The notes under the pieces were generated by a model that ran no database searches, had not been told where the DNA came from, and saw only the letters and a program-made list of their open reading frames with translations. A DNA stretch of 64,000 bases from Dethiobacter alkaliphilus AHT 1 (GTDB lineage Bacteria; Bacillota; Dethiobacteria; Dethiobacterales; Dethiobacteraceae): assembly GCF_000174415.1 (NCBI RefSeq), contig NZ_ACJM01000005.1, positions 62,001 through 126,000 of the forward strand. The letters are read 5' to 3'. Shown one piece after another: positions 6,711 through 47,276 of this stretch (its first letter is position 1; each line of letters begins with the position of its first letter). A program made the translations under genes and the position numbers.

Positions 6711-7066
6711 GGGGGCGTTTTGGATTCGACGGGGGTTGGATAGGTGAGAGTTGCGAGTCCGGGCCCATGCACCCGGTCAACAACGTGGAACGGCTATAAA
6801 TGCCAACGATAATTACGCTCTCGCTGCTTAATTAAAGCAGCGTGTCCGCTGGATCCGAGCCTGTAGGAACCAGTCCGGGCATCAATTAATCAGGCTACCG
6901 ACCCCACGGTAGGCACTGCCAAAGGGGAAGGGAATAACAACAGTGCTAGTGCAGTAGCATCCTGTCTCAGGGAGGCCGCTGCATGAAATTAAATCTGAGG
7001 CTACACTCGTAGACGCTTTCGCTAGTCTGCCTGCGGACAGGGGTTCGACTCCCCTCGCCTCCACCA
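6711..7066 (+). ncRNA. ssrA: Transfer-messenger RNA (tmRNA)
   Basis: Complete 356-nt tmRNA. The 5' GGGGGCG pairs with the 3' CGCCTCC (one G-U) to form the acceptor stem, ending in an encoded CCA. The T-arm is GGGGTTCGACTCCCC. The tag reading frame at 6802-6831 starts on GCC and encodes ANDNYALAA then TAA, so the appended peptide is AANDNYALAA including the charged alanine. Its 3' end is the apparent attachment point of the accessory island that follows, and pieces of its pseudoknot region recur downstream. Confidence 0.97.
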
Positions 7067-22649: not shown

Positions 22650-24131
22650 TTACCTCTTTTTCCAAATGCGAACGTAGTCTATATCAAAATACTGTGGGAA
22701 GCGCGTTGTATTATCCGGACTACCGGGCCAATCCCCTCCAATAGCAGTGTTCATATAGAGATAAAGAGGTGTGTCGGGGACATCTTCTGTTATGGAAAAC
22801 CATTCCTCACCATCAACAAGCCAAACCAATTTGTCTTGATCCCATTCAATGCCAAATGTATGAAAATCCTCGGAAAAATCAGGCCCAACAAAATAACTAT
22901 TGGGGTTTCTTTGTCGACCATATTTGTCTATATAATGATAGACCATCCAGATCTTGTTAGGTTCATGGCCAAGCATTTCCATAATGTCTATTTCCGGCAG
23001 GCTGGTGCGGTTGTCTGCCAGGAGCCAAAGAGCGGGGAATACACCTTGGCCCTTGGGAAGCCGAGCCCGGATTTCAACTTTACCATAGTGAAGGGCGAAT
23101 TTATTTTTTGTTTCCACAGCACCGGAAGTATAATTGCGGTTCTTGTAGTTTTCTTTCTTGCTGACCAGTTGTAAATAGCCATCATTAACAATGACATTAT
23201 CATAGCTGTAATACTGCAGCTCATTGTTCTTATCTGATGCCCACTCTACAACATTCCACTTAGTTAGATCTATGCTATCTCCTGTAAATTCGTCATGCCA
23301 AACAATTTCCCAATCATCTGTACTAAGGCTGGTATCAAGTTCCGCGGTTACTGTTTTTGACTTTGCGTTCTCGTATTTACCAATTCGTAAAAGGCGGTCA
23401 AGTGTTACAATTTCATATCCTTTAGCGTGCAGTCCTTCAATAATTTCGGGAAGAGCCTCCGCAGTGGCTTCGTTACCCGCGATGGAGTGCATTAAGACAA
23501 TTCCTCCAGGTGTTATATTATCAAGGACGGTTCTGACTAGCGTATCTTTATCTTTTACGCGCCAATCCAAGGTATCAAGGGACCACGTAACAATTTTAAA
23601 ATCACGTTCTTTAATACTGGTTAGCAAATTATGTGTTATTATTTCTTCCGGCGGACGAAAAAGCACCGGTATTTCACCGATAACTTCCTTAAATGCATCA
23701 CTGGTTCGATCGATATCCCGGCCTATAAAGTCAGCACTTTTGCCGGTATAGTCATCATGGAAAAAACTGTGGTTTAAAACTAAATGACCGTCATAATAGG
23801 CATATCTCACCACATCAGGATTCATCAGGACATTTTCACCAATAAAGAAGAAGTTGCCTTTAACTCCGTAACTATTTAAAATGTTAATGATTTCTGGCGT
23901 AACAACTTTATCCGGGCCGTCATCAAAGGTAAGGCTTACCAAACGCTCTTGACCGCGACCCTTGTTGAAATAAATTGTATCAACATATTCAGCAGCTATT
24001 GATTCTACCCGTGCTGCACCCGGGTCTGCGAAATTCGGATTCTCAGCTGTTGTTATTAAGGAACCGGAGAAGATAACATAAGTGGTAACCAAGACACAAC
24101 AAAGTATAATGAGAACAATTGCTTTTCCCAT
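22650..24131 (-). CDS. Polysaccharide deacetylase-GH16 fusion, membrane-anchored or secreted
   Basis: 493 residues. An N-terminal hydrophobic segment (3-22) is followed by a NodB/CE4 deacetylase domain (about 60-250): LTFDDGP metal-binding Asp pair, NHSFFH histidines and FRPPEE. From about 270 a GH16 beta-glucanase-type domain follows, with WHDEFTGDSIDLTKW and the catalytic EIDIME (about 379-384), then FHTFGIEWDQ. It can plausibly both deacetylate and cleave a beta-linked polysaccharide outside the membrane, like PgaB does with a different hydrolase domain. It lies 14 bp behind the GT2 gene. Confidence 0.9.
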   Translation of the reverse strand: MGKAIVLIILCCVLVTTYVIFSGSLITTAENPNFADPGAARVESIAAEYVDTIYFNKGRGQERLVSLTFDDGPDKVVTPEIINILNSYGVKGNFFFIGENVLMNPDVVRYAYYDGHLVLNHSFFHDDYTGKSADFIGRDIDRTSDAFKEVIGEIPVLFRPPEEIITHNLLTSIKERDFKIVTWSLDTLDWRVKDKDTLVRTVLDNITPGGIVLMHSIAGNEATAEALPEIIEGLHAKGYEIVTLDRLLRIGKYENAKSKTVTAELDTSLSTDDWEIVWHDEFTGDSIDLTKWNVVEWASDKNNELQYYSYDNVIVNDGYLQLVSKKENYKNRNYTSGAVETKNKFALHYGKVEIRARLPKGQGVFPALWLLADNRTSLPEIDIMEMLGHEPNKIWMVYHYIDKYGRQRNPNSYFVGPDFSEDFHTFGIEWDQDKLVWLVDGEEWFSITEDVPDTPLYLYMNTAIGGDWPGSPDNTTRFPQYFDIDYVRIWKKR

Positions 24132-24145
24132 ACATTCACCCCTGA

Positions 24146-25513
24146 TTAAGCTAGTTTTGATTCATTTACTTCAACAGGCAACTCATTTAATGTATAAATT
24201 TTTCCGCATCTTTCAACTTTATCCCAATGTTGCTTTTTATAAAAGTACTGAATAGTACCTGCTGTGACCCAGAGCAACCCCAGCAGCCTATACGTTATTA
24301 TTTCCAAGGGGATAAAGGAAAGAATTCTGGCATAATTGGATTTTGAGTATGAGTGACCAAACCTCTTACTGACCAGGAAAGCGACCAGGCTTTGACAAAG
24401 AGCCAAAATAAAGTAGATTGTCAGGAGCGTTAATACCAAAGTGTGGCCTGTTTTACTCAAAATCAAAACTAATGGAACTAAAAGGGTGTTAAAGGCTATA
24501 AGAGTGCCCAACATAAATCCCTCAATCAGGAAGAATACTGACAAACCAAAGCTAAACTGGCTAAAAAGGCAATGTCCATAAGTTATTATGCAGTCCACAA
24601 ACGCTTTTTGCCATCGTATTCTTTGCTTAAAGAGATTTCGAAAATTTTCAGGACATTCGGTATAACAAACAGCCTCCGAGACAACCATCATCTTTTTGTC
24701 ACGCTCTTTTGTATATATCAATCGTTGAATTTTTAGTGTAATATCCATGTCTTCCCCCACAGTATTTCTAAAGCCGTTTAATTCCAGTAGGGTAGACCTT
24801 CTAAAGGCACCAAAGGCACCGGCAATGACTGTCATGGCTTTAAACTTAGCCTGCACAAATTTATGCAGATAGAAAGATGTCAGGTACTGCATAATCTGGT
24901 ATCTGATTATCCCTCTCACTGCAAAATTAGGGCTTGCCTTACCACCTTTAACTCCGGCTCCCTGTACGATGTGGACCATACCACCAGCGGCAATTACACT
25001 ATCATCGTGGAAGCAAGAATTCATAGCTTGCAATGAGTTGCTGTCGAGAATAGAGTCTGCATCCAGGGTAACAACAATATCGTTATTTGCATAATCAATC
25101 CCAGCATTTAAAGCATCTGCTTTACCACCATTTGATTTATCAATAACATAAACGTTTGGATATATTGTAGAGTAATAAAAACCTCTAACCGTCTTGTAGG
25201 TGAGTGTCCGGTTTATACTTTCTTCAACTGCTTCCAGCCGTAAAAAGGATTCCAGAATTCCTAAGGTATCATCTGTAGACCCGTCATTGATGATAATAAG
25301 CTCATGGTTTTGATAATTTGCTCTAAGGGCTCCCAGAATGCACTGTTTAATTACATGTTGTTCATTGAAAGCAGGAACCAAAATAGTTAAACCCAGTTCG
25401 GGCAATTTTTCAGGTAATTCAGTACCCCGCTTATGATTTAATAATGGAATAGTTATGTATAAGATTTGAAACATGACAAAGATTGAGAAGATTACCAATG
25501 TAAGTACTAACAT
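24146..25513 (-). CDS. Membrane glycosyltransferase family 2 (processive polysaccharide synthase type)
   Basis: 455 residues. One N-terminal membrane helix, a cytoplasmic GT2 domain (DGSTDDT near 81-87, DADS near 150-153, EDMDITLKI near 250 and QRIRW near 292-296, i.e. the D,D,D,QxxRW set of processive synthases), then several C-terminal helices. The plan matches PgaC/IcaA or hyaluronan-synthase-like enzymes that polymerise and export a beta-glycan. Neighbouring deacetylase and GH16 proteins support an exopolysaccharide role. The polymer cannot be named from sequence. Confidence 0.9.
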   Translation of the reverse strand: MLVLTLVIFSIFVMFQILYITIPLLNHKRGTELPEKLPELGLTILVPAFNEQHVIKQCILGALRANYQNHELIIINDGSTDDTLGILESFLRLEAVEESINRTLTYKTVRGFYYSTIYPNVYVIDKSNGGKADALNAGIDYANNDIVVTLDADSILDSNSLQAMNSCFHDDSVIAAGGMVHIVQGAGVKGGKASPNFAVRGIIRYQIMQYLTSFYLHKFVQAKFKAMTVIAGAFGAFRRSTLLELNGFRNTVGEDMDITLKIQRLIYTKERDKKMMVVSEAVCYTECPENFRNLFKQRIRWQKAFVDCIITYGHCLFSQFSFGLSVFFLIEGFMLGTLIAFNTLLVPLVLILSKTGHTLVLTLLTIYFILALCQSLVAFLVSKRFGHSYSKSNYARILSFIPLEIITYRLLGLLWVTAGTIQYFYKKQHWDKVERCGKIYTLNELPVEVNESKLA

Positions 25514-25536
25514 AAGGCACCCCCTGTGGCTTTAAA

Positions 25537-26109
25537 TTAAAAAGCTTTTTTAAACACACGCACATAATCTATGTTTGAATCGTGTGATGATAAATATAAG
25601 AACTGGCGTGTATCGGGGATGTCTCTTGTGGTAGAAAATGTCTCTTTCCCATCAAATAACCAGACAATTTTTTCCTGGTCCCATTCTATCCCAAAGGTAT
25701 GGTAGTCAGCTGATAGATTGGAGTGGTTCACACGATGAAAAATGTTAACTTTAGCCGAAATGTTTTCATTTTCTTCTATCAGCCAAGCACTGGGTAATGT
25801 TCCCGATTCCGAAAGGCGGGCCCGAATCTCAATCTTGCCATACAGTAAGCTAAAAACACTGCGAAAGCCATTGTCCTGGGGCTTCCATTTATATAAATCA
25901 AGCTCTCCTGCGCTAAGCTCATCATGCCAAATTACTGTCCAGTCATCGGTGTCAAGGCTTATATCAAAACCCGCATATACTCCTGCTGCAGTGGCACTGT
26001 TAGACGAAAGTGCCTGGTAGATGCTGTTTAGTTGGTTAAGGCCAATAATTAAACTGATTGTAAGTATAGCGACGAGTGGTATCCAACCAAAGCCCCTTTG
26101 CATTGCCAA
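25537..26109 (-). CDS. GH16-like protein lacking the catalytic acids
   Basis: 190 residues, first gene of the operon. An N-terminal membrane anchor (about 9-30) precedes a shortened GH16 fold: WHDELSAGELDLYKW, YGKIEIRARL, YHTFGIEWDQEKIVWLFDG and NIDYVRVFKK match the fusion protein downstream. The stretch that aligns with EIDIMEMLGHE reads KVNIFHRVNHS, so both catalytic glutamates are gone, as is much of the N-terminal half. It may bind rather than cut polysaccharide. TTG 26109 or ATG 26103 is the start; GGGGGAGG lies upstream. Confidence 0.8.
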   Translation of the reverse strand: MAMQRGFGWIPLVAILTISLIIGLNQLNSIYQALSSNSATAAGVYAGFDISLDTDDWTVIWHDELSAGELDLYKWKPQDNGFRSVFSLLYGKIEIRARLSESGTLPSAWLIEENENISAKVNIFHRVNHSNLSADYHTFGIEWDQEKIVWLFDGKETFSTTRDIPDTRQFLYLSSHDSNIDYVRVFKKAF

Positions 26110-26278: not shown

Positions 26279-26436
26279 TACTTATTTATCATTAAAATTT
26301 TAGACAATGGCAGGAATGCTTTCTTTTGGCGGAGAATATATAAATACAAAGCCATATTTAGAAAATGCTGTATCGATCCGTGCTGAATTATGCAGCTTAC
26401 TTCTAGCAAGCCTTCATTAAGGATTACTTTAGTTCT

Positions 26437-26516
26437 TGGGGGCTGTGATTTCAGGGCTTATATGGACGCTTTGCCCTGGGGGAGCCAGTAGCGTAACCGA
26501 CCACTTATGGTCGGTT
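26437..26516 (+). ncRNA. c-di-GMP-II riboswitch with terminator, copy 1
   Basis: The order GTGATTTCAGGG, CTTATATGGACGCTTTGCCC, GAGCCAGTAGCGTAACCGACC matches the c-di-GMP-II class. The pseudoknot strands ACGCT (26466-26470) and AGCGT (26490-26494) replace GCACU/AGUGC of the studied clostridial aptamer with kept pairing. The P2 stem GGGC/GCCC is also covariant. ACCGACC (26496-26502) is shared with a terminator stem to GGTCGGT and a T-run, so ligand binding and termination should exclude each other. The outer P1 pairing is weak in this copy. Confidence 0.8.
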
Positions 26517-26589
26517 TTTGTGGTTTAAAGCCCCAGTAATTTAGGGATACCGATACTATAAAATGATAATAAATGAAAGGGTGAAAGGA

Positions 26590-27000
26590 TTGGCCGAGCA
26601 AAATGAAAGAGTTGTGAAACAGCACTTTGCGTTTTTTGGCCAGGGAAATCTTCCCGACGCTCTCGAGTTGTTTGCAGAGGATGTAGATTTTCAATCTCCT
26701 GTTACAAAAAACCCTCCCGAAGAAATATCTTGGGCTAAGCCGCGATATAGTAAAAAAGATGTTGCCTTATTTTTTAAGGAGCTATCTGAAAAAATACAAG
26801 TAAAAAAGATGGAAGCAATGTTTTTTACATGCCAAAACGATAGAGTAATTGTGGAAGGAAGAAATGGCGGAGTAGTAAAAGCTACCGGCCGTGGTTATGA
26901 GCATGATTGGGTTATGGTGTTTACATTGCAGGACGAAAAAATTTGCCGAGCAAGACACTATTACGATACAGCTGATATTGTAGCCGCTTTCCGTGATTAA
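26590..27000 (+). CDS. SnoaL-like (NTF2-fold) small protein under a c-di-GMP riboswitch
   Basis: About 136 residues. VVKQHFAFFGQGNLPDALELFAEDVDFQSP is the typical start of SnoaL-like polyketide-cyclase-fold proteins, and the C-terminal VMVFTLQDEKICRARHYYDTADIVAAF fits the family ending. Members can be isomerases, dehydratases or simple binders, so no reaction is assigned. The TTG at 26590 is preferred because GAAAGGG precedes it; an ATG at 26563 lacks a ribosome site. It follows riboswitch copy 1 by about 75 bp. Confidence 0.78.
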   Translation: MAEQNERVVKQHFAFFGQGNLPDALELFAEDVDFQSPVTKNPPEEISWAKPRYSKKDVALFFKELSEKIQVKKMEAMFFTCQNDRVIVEGRNGGVVKATGRGYEHDWVMVFTLQDEKICRARHYYDTADIVAAFRD

Positions 27001-27138
27001 GTTAAGTTACTTGAAATCTGACATAAAAGAATAAGAACTTTGCATACAGAATAGGATTAATTAATTAAATATGTAAAAATATATATGAACTGCATGTATA
27101 TTAATTCTGGCATACTACTCACTTTGCTTCCCACCCGT

Positions 27139-27236
27139 TTATGGGGGCTGTGATTTCAGGGCTTATATGGACGCTTTGCCCGGGAGGAGCCAGTAGCGTA
27201 ACCGACCATATATTAAGGTCGGTTATTTTAATTTTA
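27139..27236 (+). ncRNA. c-di-GMP-II riboswitch with terminator, copy 2
   Basis: Almost the same aptamer as copy 1. Here the outer P1 pairing is clear: TATGG (27140-27144) with CCATA (27206-27210). Pseudoknot ACGCT (27171-27175)/AGCGT (27195-27199) is identical. The terminator ACCGACC (27201-27207)/GGTCGGT (27217-27223) with TATTTTAATTTTAT overlaps the aptamer end, implying a transcription-level switch on the two small genes downstream. The remaining sequence from 27001 shows no gene. Confidence 0.83.
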
Positions 27237-27308
27237 TAAAAGGTTAGAACCTACTCATCAGTCATAGATTATTTCCGTGCACAGGAAATTAAAAAAGGAG
27301 GAAAAGAA

Positions 27309-27632
27309 ATGATTAAGGTAAGTGTTTTGTACCCAAATTCAGAGGGCAAGAAATTTGACATTGATTATTACTGCAATAATCATATGTCACTGGTAAAGGA
27401 AAAGTTGGGGACTGCGCTAAAAGGCGGGGCTGTAGAGGTGGGGTTAAGTGGGGGAGAGCCGGGTGCGCCGGCGCCATTTCTCGCCATGGGTCATATGTAT
27501 TTCGACTCGATGGAGGAATTTCAAGCAGCTTTTCTGCCTCATGTTGCAACGTTTATGGGTGATCTTCCCAATTACACTGATATCACACCCGTAATTCAGA
27601 TCAGCGAGGTAAAACTCCAGCAATTTCCTTAA
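27309..27632 (+). CDS. EthD-family small protein
   Basis: 107 residues of the dimeric alpha/beta-barrel (ferredoxin-like) EthD type: IKVSVLYPNSEGKKFDIDYYCNNHMSLVKEKLG is the typical beginning with a conserved His, and MYFDSMEEFQAAFLPHVATFMGDLPNYTD the typical end. EthD proteins accompany oxidative degradation systems but their reaction is generally unknown. AAAAAAGGAGG precedes the ATG. It is the first gene behind riboswitch copy 2, 44 bp before a structurally related gene. Confidence 0.82.
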   Translation: MIKVSVLYPNSEGKKFDIDYYCNNHMSLVKEKLGTALKGGAVEVGLSGGEPGAPAPFLAMGHMYFDSMEEFQAAFLPHVATFMGDLPNYTDITPVIQISEVKLQQFP

Positions 27633-27676
27633 TAGATTTGATTCATTGGGAATACACGATAAAAGGAGGAAAAACT

Positions 27677-27967
27677 ATGTATGCAACGTTAGTAATGTTT
27701 AATATTGGGCCGGGGATGCAGGAGCAAGCAACAGGGATGGCCGATCAGTTTGCACAGCTTCATGCCACCTTGAAAGGATTTAAAAGCTCAACATTCTTCA
27801 GTGATGAAGCCAAAGGCGATTACGGTGCATTTTCTCTCTGGGAAACAAATGAAGATGCCGAAGCGGCCTTGGGTACCGCAGGACCCAAGCTTCAGGAAGC
27901 TTTAAAAGACATTGTGCAAGAGCCGCCGACGGTTCGTATTTTTGAAGTGTACCTGCCTAACATGTAG
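27677..27967 (+). CDS. ABM-fold (antibiotic biosynthesis monooxygenase-like) small protein
   Basis: 96 residues, ferredoxin-like dimeric fold inferred from the pattern ATLVMFNIGPGMQEQATGMADQFAQLHATLKGFKSSTFF followed by GAFSLWETNEDAEAAL. Members include small monooxygenases and haem-degrading proteins; the residues that would decide this are not distinctive here. The ATG at 27677 has AAAAGGAGG seven bases upstream, whereas an in-frame ATG at 27638 has none. Co-transcribed with the EthD gene, ending at a terminator. Confidence 0.75.
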   Translation: MYATLVMFNIGPGMQEQATGMADQFAQLHATLKGFKSSTFFSDEAKGDYGAFSLWETNEDAEAALGTAGPKLQEALKDIVQEPPTVRIFEVYLPNM

Positions 27968-28069: not shown

Positions 28070-28096
28070 GCCCCAAAACCTTGGGGCTTTTTCTTT
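28070..28096 (+). terminator. Terminator of the EthD/ABM pair
   Basis: GCCCCAA/TTGGGGC around AACC, followed by TTTTTCTTT. Confidence 0.85.
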
Positions 28097-28197: not shown

Positions 28198-29265
28198 GTG
28201 AGTGCAGAACGTTTTATAAATCCAGGTGACTTGTTTTTGCCTTGGAGCACTCGTAATACGACTAATACTACCAGAGCGCTAGGTAGTGACTTTAGTCAAA
28301 CTCAATATCCAGTTGCTGAAATGGCGTTTGCCGGTATCAGCCCTGTAACAGTATATCTGGCGTCCTCGGAAAATTTCTCAGAAGCGATTATCGGTACTCC
28401 TCTTATGCACCATCCCATCGATGGGCCGTTATTTCTAACTGATCCTAACCGAATAGACCCATTTGTCTTAGCAGCTATCAGGCGATTGGCCCCAACCGGC
28501 ATGGGTGAAGCTCAAGTAGTATTAATCGGTGAGTTTTCGGATCTTGTGATGCGAGCAATCCAATTCATGGGATTCACTGTACGGAGAATTTTAGGACCGG
28601 ATGATGTGTTTCACACTGCTCACCGTATTCTAAACGAGTTATGTGTGCCTCAAGATGTGTTTCTCATTTCTACTGATCCCAATCATGGCGGGCATATTAC
28701 CGGTGCATATTCCGCCCACTCCGGAGTGCCAATATTATTGACTGAGGGGCCAACTTTACCGCGGCATACCCGCATGGCATTAGAGCAGATAAATAACCCA
28801 CGAGTTTATATTGTTGGTACTACTAATGCCATTCCTCAAAGCGTGATTAATGAGGTGCAAGGCTTGGCTGGTTTTGTAGACGTCATTAGTGCCGATGATA
28901 TTTTTACCTTGGCCGTAAGATTCAGTCGGTACAGAAGCCCCGTTGCTGAGGTGGGCTGGGATAGAAATGAGCCTGACGGGCATGCGTTTACGTTTGTCCT
29001 TCCTCAGCCTTGGCAGTACTTGGTTTCTTCCGCTTCCTTGGCGCATTTGGGAAAACACACGCCGTTTTTGTTTGTAAACAGAGACAGTGTGCCGGAAGCT
29101 ACTATGCAATATATCATGCAGGTTAACCCGCAAAGTGGTGACAGACCGCCGTTTATGCACGGATTTATTATAGGCAACAAAAATGTAATCAGTATACCCG
29201 TTCAAAACGAATTGCATCTGGGATTGTCTGTAGATTTAGAGCACCACATGCCCCATGATTTATAA
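28198..29265 (+). CDS. Cell-wall-binding repeat 2 (CWB2)-like protein without signal peptide
   Basis: 355 residues. Blocks such as VTVYLASSENFSEAIIGTPLMHHPIDGPLFLTDPNRI, VFLISTDPNHGGHITGAYSAHSGVPILLTEG and NPRVYIVGTTNAIPQSV follow the CWB2 pattern (asserted name/identity strand, then 'pILLt' strand and 'v.iiGg...is' turn) that normally anchors S-layer proteins. There is no N-terminal hydrophobic segment, so export by the Sec route is unlikely and the protein may work in the cytoplasm. The GTG start follows AAAGGAGG. It stands alone, with a terminator on each side. Confidence 0.72.
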   Translation: MSAERFINPGDLFLPWSTRNTTNTTRALGSDFSQTQYPVAEMAFAGISPVTVYLASSENFSEAIIGTPLMHHPIDGPLFLTDPNRIDPFVLAAIRRLAPTGMGEAQVVLIGEFSDLVMRAIQFMGFTVRRILGPDDVFHTAHRILNELCVPQDVFLISTDPNHGGHITGAYSAHSGVPILLTEGPTLPRHTRMALEQINNPRVYIVGTTNAIPQSVINEVQGLAGFVDVISADDIFTLAVRFSRYRSPVAEVGWDRNEPDGHAFTFVLPQPWQYLVSSASLAHLGKHTPFLFVNRDSVPEATMQYIMQVNPQSGDRPPFMHGFIIGNKNVISIPVQNELHLGLSVDLEHHMPHDL

Positions 29266-46967: not shown

Positions 46968-46989
46968 ACTTAATAATCAAATAAATAAA

Positions 46990-47276
46990 AGCAATGAAAG
47001 AGAAAAGTAAGCTGGCTTTAAGCTTTTCAGGGAGGAAGTGTCATCGACTGAAAGCACTTCCAAAGCTATGTTGGCCGAAGTTCGCTCTTGAGCTGTAGGT
47101 TGAACCCAGTTGTCTGGATAGTAGGCCGTACCGGAGACTTCTACCGTTAAAAGGAAGAGGGTATCGGATGAATTCCTGTACCTTTGTCAAGATGGCCTTT
47201 ATTGAGGCCAACTAGGGTGGTACCGCGAAAGTATATACTTCTCGCCCCTAAGAGGGTGGAGAAGTATTTTTATTTG
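46990..47276 (+). ncRNA. T-box leader 1, phenylalanine specifier
   Basis: Stem I starts with AAAGAG (paired with CTCTT) and contains an AGTA motif at about 47007. The specifier loop on the 3' side presents TTC (47081-47083), the Phe codon. The T-box AGGGTGGTACCGCG (47213-47226) offers TGGT for tRNA ACCA. The terminator pairs ATACTTCTC with GAGAAGTAT before TTTTTATTT. Uncharged tRNA-Phe should prevent termination and switch on chorismate mutase and DAHP synthase. Specifier assignment was by eye. Confidence 0.85.

Follow-up and report, generated by a model that had tools for sequence, protein, structure and literature searches.

The window, a 64,000-nucleotide stretch of the Dethiobacter alkaliphilus AHT 1 genome, contains two closely similar RNA leaders on the plus strand, the first preceding the gene of a SnoaL-like protein and the second those of an EthD-family protein and a small protein of predicted ABM fold (Table 1). 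Genes of GH16, family-2 glycosyltransferase and polysaccharide deacetylase-GH16 type lie on the minus strand at 22650-26109. The first-pass annotation had placed an exopolysaccharide operon next door; these genes are indeed adjacent, but they are on the opposite strand, diverge from the riboswitch locus and have no Rfam aptamer match. A common regulon finds no support on these grounds, and the link between them and the locus is one of proximity only. Membership of the cell-wall-binding protein at 28198 is likewise unsupported, since it sits after the terminator. A T-box leader (46985-47252) and a tmRNA (6711-7066), both ordinary, were also found in the window.

Table 1. Features of the two-leader locus, in positions of the window.
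Feature	Position	Strand	Evidence or remark
Upstream element ATGCAGCTTACTTCTAGCAAG	26390-26410	+	17-20 nt before aptamer 1
c-di-GMP-II aptamer, copy 1	26429-26511	+	RF01786, 56.1 bits, E 9.7e-10
Intrinsic terminator of copy 1	26495-26521	+	5' arm within aptamer; -12.8 kcal/mol
SnoaL-like (NTF2 fold) protein	26563-27000	+	Pfam SnoaL_2, E 1.9e-12
Upstream element, second copy	27094-27114	+	17-20 nt before aptamer 2
c-di-GMP-II aptamer, copy 2	27134-27216	+	RF01786, 59.5 bits, E 1.1e-10
Terminator-like hairpin of copy 2	27200-27235	+	5' arm within aptamer; -11.5 kcal/mol
EthD-family protein (dimeric alpha/beta-barrel fold)	27309-27632	+	Pfam EthD and TIGR02118
ABM-fold small protein, 96 residues	27677-27967	+	predicted fold; own SD aaaaggagg; EthD operon
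Intrinsic terminator closing the EthD-ABM operon	28070-28092	+	simple terminator scan (28070-28087)

The assignment of both leaders to the c-di-GMP-II class, made in the first-pass annotation, was confirmed by a covariance-model search (cmscan, Rfam 15), in which both copies exceeded the curated RF01786 gathering cut-off of 53.5 bits. The pseudoknot ACGCT/AGCGT is formed by 26466-26470 with 26490-26494 in copy 1 and by 27171-27175 with 27195-27199 in copy 2. It had been described as compensated; it is present in both copies, but it is identical between them and compensation is seen only across relatives. In an alignment of 47 relatives from the bacterial class, 99.5% of the cells of the pseudoknot helix were paired and two-sided changes were observed in three of four pairs. 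Over the aptamer helices of these 47 class-wide sequences, 80.3% of cells were paired, compared with 33-41% when the helices were slid by 1-3 columns. The covariation score in this same-class alignment was 0.551 against 0.200 in shuffles, the helices being taken from the Rfam model and not derived from the alignment itself. P1 of copy 1 has just three contiguous canonical pairs adjoining the core, and its shortness may change the sensitivity of this copy. Five class-II and ten class-I aptamers were counted genome-wide, and the GGDEF proteins encoded in the genome are themselves behind c-di-GMP-I aptamers. The two leaders resemble other RF01786 members in their core, in the four helices including the pseudoknot, in the terminator on the aptamer 3' strand, and in the occurrence of several copies per genome alongside class-I switches. 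Judged by sequence, both aptamers are ordinary members of c-di-GMP-II and the regulon is the unusual part.

An overlap between terminator and aptamer end had also been reported, and in each leader the 5' arm does lie inside the aptamer. In copy 1, the terminator (26495-26516) has the sequence AACCGACCACTTATGGTCGGTT with a T run after it. In copy 2, AACCGACC and GGTCGGTT form a hairpin with a 9-nt loop and a weaker U tail interrupted by A, which was missed by the simple terminator scan with its 8-nt loop limit; this terminator is predicted to be weaker than that of copy 1. In both copies this 5' arm coincides with the strand on which the bound aptamer depends after the pseudoknot and for P1. 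Because the bound aptamer needs this strand, it and the terminator should exclude each other, which makes an ON switch, with c-di-GMP blocking termination, the likely logic. At low c-di-GMP, the aptamer 3' end AACCGACC would pair with GGTCGGTT, the terminator would form and the gene would not be read; at high c-di-GMP, the pseudoknot and P1 would close, the aptamer would keep the strand and transcription would proceed. Copy 1 would thus control SnoaL, and copy 2 EthD and ABM. We consider it very probable that both leaders act as transcriptional ON riboswitches of class c-di-GMP-II and were copied to positions before small enzyme genes which look acquired.

The aptamer cores are identical at 64 of 66 positions and start 705 bp apart. 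The first-pass annotation had proposed a duplicated cassette, of which the leader half stands; a duplicated gene cassette was ruled out, as the genes that follow copy 1 have no homology to those that follow copy 2. By this comparison the duplicated unit is the leader only, that is upstream element, aptamer and terminator, and a recent date for its duplication holds up. The 21-nt upstream element, of ATGYAGYTTRYTTMTRGCAAR type, is shared by five class-II leaders at a fixed distance, as it also precedes, in similar form, the C7 aptamer of the same genome (L062, where it is 1 nt longer) and aptamers in G018 (L074) and G002 C32 (L073). The element pattern, derived from these same sites, has its only match within the window here, where 0.10 was expected. 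No convincing sigma-70 consensus promoter was seen before either leader. The element at 26390-26410 is probably part of the leader promoter or an operator, and the element common to the five leaders is possibly an alternative-sigma promoter or operator. The third leader of this genome with a similar element precedes a gene for a BspA-type repeat protein, and the aptamers nearest to the window pair are this BspA-type gene leader and two leaders of family members (82-91% identity). As these related, element-bearing leaders are the nearest, a leader unit used elsewhere for surface proteins appears to have been copied before the acquired-looking small enzyme genes. At L074 (G018:C488), a transposase-looking ORF follows soon after the gene start, and the target behind that leader may be interrupted.

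Both leaders lie on one strand, and in the interval of about 134 bp from the SnoaL stop to aptamer 2 no strong terminator was detected; this raises the alternative of a single transcript with a serial gate. Read-through of copy 1 across SnoaL would be gated again by copy 2, and two ON decisions would give a steeper response. Nevertheless, copy 2 has its own upstream element at the usual distance, which suggests a promoter of its own, and we find the serial gate somewhat unlikely.

The SnoaL-like protein, which may start at ATG 26563 or TTG 26590, passes PF12680 (48.1 bits, cut-off 27), and its nearest solved structure by sequence is 3fgy (E 8e-14). The EthD protein passes both PF07110 (E 5.3e-7; 31.2 bits, cut-off 22) and TIGR02118 (E 3.5e-23; 82.2 bits, cut-off 30.5) and matches the structure 3bf4 with E 8.9e-29. 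The third protein falls below the PF03992 (ABM) cut-off (14.4 versus 23.1 bits). A single-sequence model predicts a beta-alpha-beta-beta-alpha-beta fold for it (mean pLDDT 78), with SnoaB and further ABM monooxygenases as the top-ranking PDB structures (E 2.6e-6, TM about 0.68-0.77), and it is related in sequence (E about 1e-5) to a protein of the genome G034 that passes the ABM cut-off. The model is that of an ABM-like protein with a ferredoxin-like monomer fold of the dimeric alpha/beta-barrel type. The earlier naming of the targets as SnoaL, EthD and ABM-like is supported for the first two and, for the third, agrees with the predicted fold though not with the Pfam threshold.

An N-terminal hydrophobic segment was found in none of the three proteins, and they are for this reason probably cytosolic. 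The first-pass annotation had called such targets unusual, and they do stand where surface, pilus or adhesion genes would be customary, although this is a habit of the riboswitch class and not a defining feature. Among known members of the SnoaL, ABM and EthD families are cyclases, isomerases and oxygenases that work without a cofactor. The products here are probably cofactor-independent enzymes of isomerase or oxygenase type, and our best guess for the substrate, made at low confidence from the same family members, is a small aromatic, quinone or polyketide-like molecule. No biosynthetic cluster was recognised near the SnoaL, EthD and ABM genes.

Neither SnoaL nor EthD had a match in 38 relatives, so that no orthologue stands behind a riboswitch there, and a search for SnoaL in 398 genomes of the phylum gave one weak match (23%). 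The closest EthD proteins found in a pattern-limited search are 65-69% identical and mostly proteobacterial or acidobacterial. The absence from relatives, together with this distribution of the nearest EthD proteins, suggests that the SnoaL and EthD genes were acquired by horizontal transfer. The EthD neighbourhoods in Neptuniibacter, NaphS2 and an Acidobacteria MAG revealed no consistent pathway.

The DNA downstream of each of the 49 class-II sites listed for 97 genomes of the bacterial class was surveyed. At 45 of them the downstream region was good enough to assess; a simple hydrophobicity test gave the first gene a signal-like or membrane-like N-terminus at 29 of these, and most class-II sites in this bacterial class appear to precede secreted or surface proteins. 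Other kinds of target behind class-II aptamers were noticed by eye. Three aptamers (L136, L140 and L141, in G213, G449 and G179) are followed by a pair of 114-aa and 133-aa proteins resembling an MNT/HEPN toxin-antitoxin, and one (L131, G059:C98) leads to genes like those of radical-SAM/PqqD-type peptide modification. Two more (L083 and L128, in G034 and G085) stand before a 188-aa protein that looks PilZ-like; if it is, an RNA switch would control another c-di-GMP receptor.

Small enzymes like those of the window recur at two of the surveyed sites, which belong to two other families of the bacterial class. In G034 (C59:6128) the order is aptamer, terminator, SnoaL (PF07366, E 6e-29) and ABM (PF03992, E 1e-7), and in G019 (C198:2547) aptamer, terminator and DUF3303 (PF11746, E 1.6e-11). 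We take DUF3303 to be a small protein probably of the same fold type as the dimeric alpha/beta-barrel/ABM proteins. The two aptamers lie under the Rfam cut-off at 44.7 and 41.4 bits (E about 1e-8 and 1e-7), with the core intact and a terminator present in each. Their scores with our class model R1 are 70.8 (G034) and 60.2 bits (G019), which are not independent as both were in its training set. The four gene families are rare: in 96 genomes of the bacterial class, 18 SnoaL, 27 ABM (28 with that of the window), 5 EthD and 7 DUF3303 genes were counted. By an approximate and partly post hoc estimate, with ~189,000 background genes derived from genome size, about 0.014 first-gene cases would be expected at the 44 non-own sites, against the two observed (Poisson P about 9e-5). 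Without DUF3303, which was added after being seen, the equally approximate P for at least one case is about 0.012, leaving the SnoaL-ABM co-occurrence uncounted.

The aptamers of G034 and G019 each cluster with those of their own lineage and are closest to aptamers other than those of the window, which suggests that the pairing of class-II aptamer and small enzyme arose repeatedly by independent recruitment. With our SnoaL and ABM HMMs, G034 was the sole direct case beyond the window among the class-II sites retrieved, some 110 of which came from elsewhere in the phylum. An R1 scan near EthD relatives and near the SnoaL, ABM, EthD and DUF3303 genes of the bacterial class returned the window, G034 and G019 only. 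Three other candidates were not counted: the ABM gene of G086, which lies 1.5 kb behind an aptamer and is too far; a second SnoaL gene of G034, 5 kb off on the other strand; and a SnoaL gene of G067 beside a class-I aptamer, which looks oppositely oriented. Separately, SnoaL-like and DUF3303 genes adjoin without a riboswitch at G032:C31:2824-3303, suggesting that the small proteins form a module of their own.

These results bear on whether real aptamers might have been placed incidentally, a leader being copied beside acquired genes so that c-di-GMP control came without a selected function. The recent date of the duplication, with its near-identical cores, and the failure to find the SnoaL and EthD genes in relatives would fit such an accident. 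The two further lineages with SnoaL plus ABM and with DUF3303, where chance would give about 0.014 first-gene cases at the non-own sites, speak against it, as do the pseudoknot and terminator kept intact in both window copies, and we judge incidental placement improbable. Since it is found separately in two related bacteria, the pairing of riboswitch and small enzyme is probably not an accident. More tentatively, and with some doubt on our part, class-II riboswitches in this bacterial class may have been recruited on several occasions to a cytosolic enzyme module of SnoaL and dimeric alpha/beta-barrel proteins.

As for the direction of the switch, in most class-I c-di-GMP switches the ligand favours termination. 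An OFF switch of that kind is highly improbable at this locus, as the terminator takes up the 3' strand of P1 together with the nucleotides that follow the pseudoknot, so excluding the bound aptamer, and class II in C. difficile is uniformly ON (PMC6200980). The C. difficile switches Cdi-2-1 to Cdi-2-4 are likewise class-II elements before genes that c-di-GMP raises, chiefly those of adhesins and surface proteins and pilA1 (PMC6200980, PMC3649979). The well-known C. difficile example uses a group I ribozyme, whereas the window copies use a terminator. More than one class-II aptamer per locus is also known from tandem c-di-GMP-II doublets and triplets; the aptamers of the published doublets adjoin each other and in most cases precede the gene of a surface anchor protein, unlike the window copies, which are separated by a coding gene (PMC9481103).

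Compared with RF01786 members at large, the locus differs in having predicted cytosolic enzymes as targets, not pili, adhesins or surface proteins, and in its two leaders with a gene between them. Its proteins share domain families and predicted fold with SnoaB/ABM, EthD and SnoaL, and differ from them in that their genes stand behind a c-di-GMP riboswitch. What is new is the unusual regulon, which is seen again in two further families of the bacterial class and is absent from the open-access literature searched, where no relevant paper joining a c-di-GMP riboswitch to SnoaL, EthD or ABM/monooxygenase was found.

In the ON reading, the GGDEF proteins of the genome would make c-di-GMP, both terminators would be passed, and SnoaL, EthD and ABM would be produced in the sessile state. 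The locus appears to show that a ready-made leader can be copied before newly acquired genes, and it offers a clear, testable lead of moderate interest, not a new kind of system. The riboswitch is also a direct way to learn when these enzymes are needed. c-di-GMP riboswitches are usually understood to control pili, adhesins and matrix; the repeated link with SnoaL/ABM-type proteins suggests that the sessile programme also has a metabolic or small-molecule arm. If the enzyme module has indeed been recruited, c-di-GMP would directly turn on a chemical step inside the cell, so far undescribed, that belongs to the sessile state.
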